Assembly (NCBI GenBank): GCA_025356015.1
Contig: JANXYO010000082.1
Span: 1 to 44,060 of the forward strand
Reading direction: 5' to 3'
From: Spirochaetaceae bacterium
Lineage (GTDB): Bacteria; Spirochaetota; Spirochaetia; Treponematales; Rectinemataceae
DNA: 44,060 nt
Part shown: positions 13,325 through 14,920 of the stretch, in pieces
Layout: every line of letters begins with the position of its first letter
Position numbering within the stretch: the stretch's first letter is position 1
Program-made: the position numbers and the translations under genes
The notes under the pieces: generated by a model
The model's input: the letters and a program-made list of their open reading frames with translations, nothing else
Database searches by the model: none
Told to the model about the DNA's origin: nothing

Positions 13325-14125
13325 CTATCTCAGCAGCACATCGCCCAGGCTGACTTCCCCGTTGTGGCGTCCGGCGGGCGCGGCGCTCCCCTTCATGGAG
13401 ATGGCGTGCTTCGAGCACCAGGTCGAGCAGGAGCCGCAGAAGTCGCAGTCGTGCTTCCACGAGGGGCGGCTCCCGGCCATGACGAGGTTCTCTCTCGGGC
13501 AGACCCGGACGCAGATTCCGCAGCCGTCGCAGCTTTCGGCCACCTGATAGCCCGCGTCGAGGCCGGGGAACTGGGCCGAGGCCATGCGGTTGAGGAAATT
13601 CCCGACTAGGGTTCCGGCCAGGGCGCTCCTCTCGGGTCTTGACCGCTTGCCAGTCTTCACAGCCTCGATGATCTCCTGCAGGCGCTCGGCCTCGGTCGCA
13701 GGCAGCTTGCCAGAGAGCTTACGCACCAGCTCTATCATCTTCGCCTGGCTGCCCTTGGGATCCCCCGCGTCGAAGTAGCCGGGTGAGCGGACGACGAAAC
13801 CCGCGTGGAGATCGCCACCCGAGGCCCGAAGGAGCTTTCGAATGCGGGGCAGGGTGCCGGCCGGTGTCCCTCCGCAGCTCGCGACCGCGAAGACATACTT
13901 CAGCGCCGAGCTCTCGAGCCGGGCCACGAATTCCCCGACCGTGCGGGGCGCTCCCCATGCGTAGACCGGGAAGACCATGCCCACGCGCTCGGCGTCGGGT
14001 CTGAATTCGGCGGAACGGAAGCCAGCCATGGGCCTAAGCTCCGCATCCCCGAGACCTTGAGCGATTTTTCTGGCGAGGGCGATGGAATTCCCCGTCGCCG
14101 AATAGTAGTAGATCGCCGTCCTCAT
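13325..14125 (-). CDS. EFR1-type flavodoxin/ferredoxin protein
   Basis: A 266-residue fusion of a flavodoxin-like domain (YYYSATGNS phosphate loop near the N-terminus, FPVYAWGAP, ASCGGTP) and a C-terminal pair of 4Fe-4S clusters (CDGCGICVRVCP and CDFCGSCSTWCSKHAI). Proteins of this make-up are named EFR1-family ferrodoxins and are thought to shuttle electrons in anaerobes; the partner enzymes are unknown. The start ATG 14125 has GGAGG eight bases upstream; the longer open frame upstream has no family similarity. It lies 122 bases downstream of padR on the same strand and may be under PadR control. Confidence 0.85.
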   Translation of the reverse strand: MRTAIYYYSATGNSIALARKIAQGLGDAELRPMAGFRSAEFRPDAERVGMVFPVYAWGAPRTVGEFVARLESSALKYVFAVASCGGTPAGTLPRIRKLLRASGGDLHAGFVVRSPGYFDAGDPKGSQAKMIELVRKLSGKLPATEAERLQEIIEAVKTGKRSRPERSALAGTLVGNFLNRMASAQFPGLDAGYQVAESCDGCGICVRVCPRENLVMAGSRPSWKHDCDFCGSCSTWCSKHAISMKGSAAPAGRHNGEVSLGDVLLR

Positions 14126-14247: not shown

Positions 14248-14823
14248 TTAGGAGCCCGGTCCAGCCTCGAGCTTGGCAAGGCACTCCTCGGCCCAAAGGA
14301 TCTGGGCTTCCGAGACCAGGACAGCCCTCCTGCGGATGAAATCGCAGTAGGGGTCCTCGCGGCAGATCTGGTCTGCCCTCGCCATGACCTGATCGCCGGG
14401 GAAGCGCTCGGCCAGATTGGTGTATTTCTCGGCGCCCTTCCTGAGCCCTCGCATATGCTCGATATAGCGCCTGAACTCCTCTTTCATCAGCTCTTTGTCG
14501 GTTCCCGACCCGAAGAAGATCCTCAGGGAGAACTCGTCACGCTTGGGCGTTGCGAAGGAGTCGGGGATGGTCGTCGCCCACTTCTCGAAGGCGAGCCGGC
14601 CAGCCTCGGTCACCTGGTAGAGCCTCTTGCTCGGGCGGTCGCGCTGGGGCTCGATCGTCGAGCAGAGGAGACCCTTCTTTTCCAGTGATTCGAGCTCGCG
14701 GTAGATCTGGCTCAGCTCGGCCTGCCAGACGAAGTTGATCGCCTCGTCGAAGAGAGCCTTGATGGCGTAGCCGTTGATGGGCGAGCCGCGGAGCAGTCCG
14801 AGAAGGGCGTAGCTGAGCGACAC
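14248..14823 (-). CDS. PadR-family transcriptional regulator
   Basis: A 191-residue PadR protein. The N-terminal winged helix starts VSLSYALLGLL, continues with GYAIKALFDE and the recognition region SQIYRELESLEKKGLL, then the wing with RPSKRLYQVTEAGRLAFEKW. A long C-terminal helical dimerisation domain (VirR_like/PadR C) follows. PadR proteins are usually repressors released by small aromatic or other ligands. The start is GTG 14823 with GGAGG five bases upstream. An inverted repeat of two CAACATGTTG sites lies across its own -35/-10 region, so it should be autorepressed. The adjacent flavodoxin gene is a probable second target. Confidence 0.92.
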   Translation of the reverse strand: MSLSYALLGLLRGSPINGYAIKALFDEAINFVWQAELSQIYRELESLEKKGLLCSTIEPQRDRPSKRLYQVTEAGRLAFEKWATTIPDSFATPKRDEFSLRIFFGSGTDKELMKEEFRRYIEHMRGLRKGAEKYTNLAERFPGDQVMARADQICREDPYCDFIRRRAVLVSEAQILWAEECLAKLEAGPGS

Positions 14824-14845
14824 GAGTGCCTCCTATCCGACGAAG

Positions 14846-14885
14846 ATAATATCCAACATGTTGAGTATTAGTCAACATGTTGGAT
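14846..14885 (-). promoter_or_regulatory. padR promoter with PadR operator
   Basis: On the minus strand: TTGACT (14875-14870), 18-base spacer, TATTAT (14851-14846). Two arms, 14851-14864 and 14872-14885, form a perfect 14-bp inverted repeat, and each holds the palindrome CAACATGTTG (14854-14863 and 14873-14882), centres 19 bp apart. One site covers the -35, the other fills the spacer. The ATGT/ACAT core is the known PadR recognition theme. Confidence 0.8.
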
Positions 14886-14920
14886 AGCTGCGGTTTTTCT
14901 GCTCATGAACGGACCGGCCG

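Follow-up and report, generated by a model that had tools for sequence, protein, structure and literature searches.

A conserved tandem palindrome in a spirochaete padR promoter is a candidate operator for autorepression of a padR–ferredoxin operon

Results and discussion

A perfect inverted repeat upstream of a padR gene in a Spirochaetaceae bacterium is probably the operator of an autoregulated padR–EFR1 operon, on which two PadR dimers would block RNA polymerase; we place the probability of this reading at about 0.8. The repeat lies across the promoter of padR itself, and orthologues have retained it. The initial annotation had proposed a PadR operator and autorepression from this locus, and the proposal gains comparative support from the sites of orthologues, their position in the promoter and a matching recognition helix. 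The mechanism itself is most likely one already known for the PadR family, and our literature search found no paper on this operator. The regulator of this EFR1 ferredoxin is uncharacterised, and the locus supplies a concrete candidate for its operator. Coordinates below refer to the window, which is the whole stretch of 44,060 nucleotides that was analysed, and L005 denotes the orthologous locus in a genome (G099) of the same family.

14850–14886, no strand: operator dyad (perfect arms of 15 bp, loop of 7 nt)
14854–14863, no strand: spacer-site core CAACATGTTG; AphA-type site 14851–14866
14873–14882, no strand: upstream-site core CAACATGTTG, which reaches into the −35 (TTG); AphA-type site 14870–14885
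14870–14875, minus strand: −35 TTGACT of the padR promoter (consensus scan); L005 has the identical hexamer in the corresponding position
14846–14851, minus strand: −10 TATTAT of the padR promoter (consensus scan); L005 has TATACT
14829–14834, minus strand: padR ribosome-binding site AGGAGG (read from the sequence)
14248–14823, minus strand: padR, 191 codons, GTG start; PF03551 and PF10400; AphA-like PadR-s1 protein with helix motif SQIYREL
13325–14125, minus strand: EFR1-family ferredoxin gene (flavodoxin part plus 4Fe-4S; NF038196); gene order kept in L005
14956–15969, plus strand: divergent TPR-repeat lipoprotein-like gene, probably outside the module

The dyad and the padR promoter

The dyad spans 37 bp (TATCCAACATGTTGAGTATTAGTCAACATGTTGGATA), with arms at 14850–14864 and 14872–14886, and can alternatively be drawn with 18-nt arms that contain one mismatch and are separated by 1 nt. 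For a sequence of the same composition, 0.002 perfect-arm dyads (arms of at least 15 bp, loops of 0–10) are expected per window. Each arm carries one copy of CAACATGTTG, with a centre-to-centre distance of 19 bp, and no further copy was found in the window with one mismatch allowed (mean of 0.19 in shuffled sequences). The dyad with two palindromes described in the initial annotation is thus real and its arms are perfect, although they measure 15 bp rather than 14, and the limits given there (14846–14885) were a few bases off. A 30-nt inverted repeat near the window start (89–153; arms 87% complementary, 5 nt apart) is the sole other long perfect-arm dyad within the window.

An independent consensus scan recovered the padR promoter as minus-strand TTGACT and TATTAT hexamers separated by an 18-nt spacer and matching the consensus at 10 of 12 positions. 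It is the closest match to a promoter in the region and leads into AGGAGG and then the GTG start codon. One palindrome (14854–14863) lies entirely inside the −35/−10 spacer, as previously described; the other (14873–14882), which had been said to cover the −35, touches only its first half, TTG, plus the bases upstream. The same promoter scan found no plus-strand promoter-like sequence.

Conservation and genome-wide distribution of the sites

We then compared the operator with those of relatives, beginning with L005, where PadR is 68% identical. In the L005 operator the stretch TATCCAACATGTTGACTAATAC is identical over 22 bases and the second site reads CTACAAGTTG, with spacing and promoter position unchanged, while the upstream DNA past the operator and a few adjoining bases is unalignable. 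For the wider comparison, the pattern TAYYCAACATGTTGRRTA was derived solely from the two window sites to avoid circularity. With it we scored the 110 bp that precede the gene in each of 37 PadR homologues, the window among them, and took dinucleotide shuffles as the background. Twelve homologues besides the window scored at p values of 0.006 or less, one (L007) at 0.07 and the remainder above 0.3; homologues within a genus or family are related, so that these counts do not represent independent events. The site-bearing padR genes span several families of the phylum, and the sites upstream of padR orthologues, on whose conservation the initial annotation had staked its proposal, are therefore conserved.

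Position is conserved together with sequence. Under a simple promoter model a site centre falls in a promoter spacer at 12 of the 14 operator-bearing loci, and reading by eye showed that the family-f39 loci have a better TTGACA farther upstream, with which the site begins at the −10 (TATATGCAAC). Tandem pairs with spacings of 14 to 19 bp are present again in L005, L006, L009 and L016; others have a single clear site, and the tandem arrangement is therefore not essential. A scan of the phylum for TATNCAACWWGTTGNATA returned eight genomes (control, 0), with five sites upstream of PadR genes, two by a GntR-type gene and one before an unrelated gene pair in a genome whose YREL PadR is encoded at another locus. 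The scan of named genomes returned one distant relative only, Woeseia.

The genome, searched by sequence pattern for further targets, comprises 4.17 Mb in 150 contigs and is 99% complete. It most likely belongs to the Spirochaetota, as judged by an FlcA periplasmic flagellar collar protein that scores 562 bits (cut-off 300, exceeded in none of 14 control genomes). Both CAACATGTTG and the wider CAACWWGTTG occur in it as just the two copies at padR, and the search for site pairs that had been suggested at the outset, run with up to three mismatches, returned the padR locus alone. Sites with no more than three mismatches in 18 positions occur at four additional places, compared with two for a reversed control. 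Three of these lie inside open reading frames and the one intergenic site (C87:10149, core CTACCTGTAG) has a radical-SAM gene on one side and a class II ribonucleotide reductase gene on the other; we consider none of the four convincing as a target. The expectation that the regulator has additional targets thus found no credible candidate in the genome search.

The regulator and its known relatives

The 191-residue padR product scores 53.7 bits against PF03551 (cut-off 27) and 43.2 bits against PF10400 (cut-off 22.4). PadR-s1 proteins are taken here as those with a PadR winged-helix and a Vir_act_alpha_C domain in about 180–200 residues, and with both domains present the window protein is assigned to this subfamily. 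The closest solved chain is AphA (1yg2, E = 9.2e-20), followed by Bacillus subtilis PadR (5x11, E = 6e-14). The signature DNA-contact tyrosines of the latter are Y20 and Y42 (PMC6457526), with which Y19 and Y41 of the window protein align in comparisons with 5x11 and the homologues. The genome also has another PadR gene (L014, G000:C72:15381-15698), whose product shows 37% identity over 108 residues and the helix YPVL, and the operator is absent at this gene.

In Vibrio cholerae, AphA serves quorum sensing and regulates many targets; the window site, by contrast, occurs at its own operon alone. The sequence preferred by AphA is ATGCAA-N4-TTGCAT, and two such sites side by side can be bound cooperatively (PMC6855506). 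The window PadR shares with AphA the helix motif QxYREL, and the window sites share the 6-N4-6 geometry but match the AphA consensus at only 9 of 12 positions each (11 of 12 for the f39 homologues); they also differ in that their middle four bases (CATG) belong to the repeated core. Given the shared motif and a published site of the same geometry, the palindromes, initially described as half-sites, are better read as cores of AphA-type full sites, and the dyad as two predicted successive dimer sites, each complete and 16–18 bp long.

The canonical PadR operator, found for LmrR, LadR and PadR, is ATGT-N8-ACAT, and autorepression is common. At the window operator we did not find this pattern (best match 6 of 8, p = 0.5). 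B. subtilis PadR belongs to the same family and its 4-N8-4 half-sites fit the 6-N4-6 geometry, but the helix of the window protein has YREL where that of B. subtilis PadR has YPEL. In Clostridioides difficile, the promoter of cdPadR1 itself contains two sites with inverted repeats, one of them over the −35/−10 region, an arrangement read as autoregulation (PMC5050560). The window likewise has two sites in the regulator's own promoter, although cdPadR1 is of the PadR-s2 subfamily and its motif is TACT-N11/12-AGTA. Other PadR proteins also autoregulate through sites over their own promoters (PMC5050560; PMC6624303).

Recognition helix and operator type

All 14 site-counted homologues (the window, the twelve and the weak match L007) have Q[IV]YREL in the recognition helix, as does AphA, and the homologues without a site have YPEL, YPVL, YPTL, YGTL or others; the motif was spotted in the same homologue set after the sites had been scored, making this an observed association rather than an independent test. 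Among 26 more homologues, examined as a second set, only one, whose helix reads YRDL, has the site (p = 0.01), and a class-wide homologue search returned no new exact YREL homologue. Two loci with padR as the second gene agree with the association on inspection: in L036 (YREL) and L030 (YKEL) the gene ahead of padR is nitronate-monooxygenase-like, and it is this gene that has an AphA-like site upstream (TATGCACTTATTTGCATA, 11 of 12 by hand count, and TATGAAAATAGTTGCATA).

Some homologues with other helices have other dyads. In the YKEL homologues L053 (about 2046–2079) and L054 (about 1451–1484) these replace the CAACWWGTTG site, that of L053 reading AGTCTA-TAAG-TAGACT by eye, and ATGTTA-N4-TAACAT was seen, also by eye, upstream of YGTL homologues. 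Among YPEL homologues of one AT-rich genus, a perfect ATGT-N8-ACAT is present in four of nine (L018, L019, L020 and L034; p = 0.02–0.04), about 100 bp upstream of padR. A phylogenetic tree groups AphA with the family-f39 homologues (98/95) and places every YREL protein within one weakly supported half, so the link between helix and site partly reflects common descent. We therefore advance only as a tentative idea, which we hold to be rather doubtful, that PadR-s1 proteins follow a recognition code in which the residues after the signature tyrosine set the operator letters while the geometry is fixed. YREL would then specify ATGCAA/ATTCAA-N4-TTG.AT, and other helices (YPEL, YKEL, YGTL) would specify ATGT-N8-ACAT, AGTCTA-N4-TAGACT and so on. 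The association of helix motif and site is a possible route to PadR operator prediction, and were the code true, the operators of uncharacterised PadR proteins would be predictable from sequence.

The padR–EFR1 operon

The gene downstream of padR scores 168.9 bits against NF038196 (cut-off 75). It starts 122 bp past padR on the same strand, with its own GGAGG, and a scan of the gap found no operator site, promoter or ordinary terminator; in L005 the order of the two genes is identical and the gap is 96 nt. Because of the shared strand, the 122-bp gap without a recognisable site or promoter and the conserved order, the EFR1 gene is probably the downstream member of the padR operon and co-transcribed with it. 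The initial annotation had placed this flavodoxin/ferredoxin gene first among the regulator's other targets, but it would sit downstream in the same likely transcript rather than form a separate target. No divergent TPR gene was found beside padR in L005, and that of the window is probably not part of the padR module.

Alternative readings of the dyad

It is improbable, in our estimate, that some other regulator, such as a GntR-type protein, binds the palindromes while PadR acts elsewhere. In two genomes of one genus (G467 and G471), TATCCAACATGTTGCATA-type palindromes are flanked by a GntR-type gene and by one resembling dihydrodipicolinate synthase, and the letters alone therefore do not identify the protein. 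These palindromes stand around 1501 in L042 and around 1440 and 1501 in L043, and a second regulator family seems to use a near-identical site. Against the GntR reading, padR genes from several families of the phylum have the site, its presence goes together with the PadR recognition helix, and the only copies in the genome of the window are at padR.

We give a similarly small chance to PadR activating here, as AphA does at some promoters (PMC6855506), or mainly repressing the divergent TPR gene, whose start is 70 bp from the dyad on the opposite strand. Sites that overlap the padR −35 and fill the spacer are in a blocking position, which speaks against activation, and for the TPR gene neither a promoter-like sequence on the plus strand nor a counterpart in the L005 neighbourhood was found. 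Least likely of all, and very improbable, is that the dyad acts as an RNA hairpin (terminator or attenuator) instead of a protein site. Although a terminator scan flagged the dyad on the minus strand, the predicted padR transcript begins downstream of it, the conserved letters are those of the site cores and not of a long stem, and many homologues have a single short palindrome; we rejected the terminator reading on these grounds.

A model for autorepression

In the preferred reading, an autorepressed padR–EFR1 operon, PadR would in the absence of a signal occupy the two neighbouring AphA-type sites (6-N4-6, cores CAACATGTTG) as two dimers, one covering the upstream side of the −35 and the second sitting within the −35/−10 spacer. 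RNA polymerase would be kept off the padR promoter, silencing padR and the ferredoxin gene, until a ligand or redox signal freed PadR from the DNA; the redox protein and the repressor would then accumulate until repression resumed. The analysis establishes the two sites, that they are unique in the genome, how they are conserved and placed in the promoters of homologues, the conserved gene order, and the association of helix motif with site type; that PadR binds, does so as two dimers, represses instead of activating, controls a joint transcript and responds to such a signal is inferred.

The partner genes of the other operator-bearing homologues mostly encode flavoproteins, either flavodoxin-type FMN reductases or nitronate-monooxygenase-like enzymes, with exceptions that include L016. 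Since the partners are mostly flavoproteins and riboflavin weakens the binding of LmrR (PMC4534193), a flavin- or redox-linked signal is a fair guess; the signal is perhaps an aromatic or flavin-type compound. These loci most likely extend the AphA-type DNA site, known from Vibrio, to the Spirochaetota, a phylum in which flavin-dependent enzymes are mostly the regulator's partners. In genome G390, TATGCAACTTGTTGTATA lies upstream of a small SnoaL-like gene that is divergent from a phenylacetate-CoA-ligase-like gene (L044, 1501–1518), and with the YREL PadR of that genome on a different contig, it is a possible candidate target in trans.
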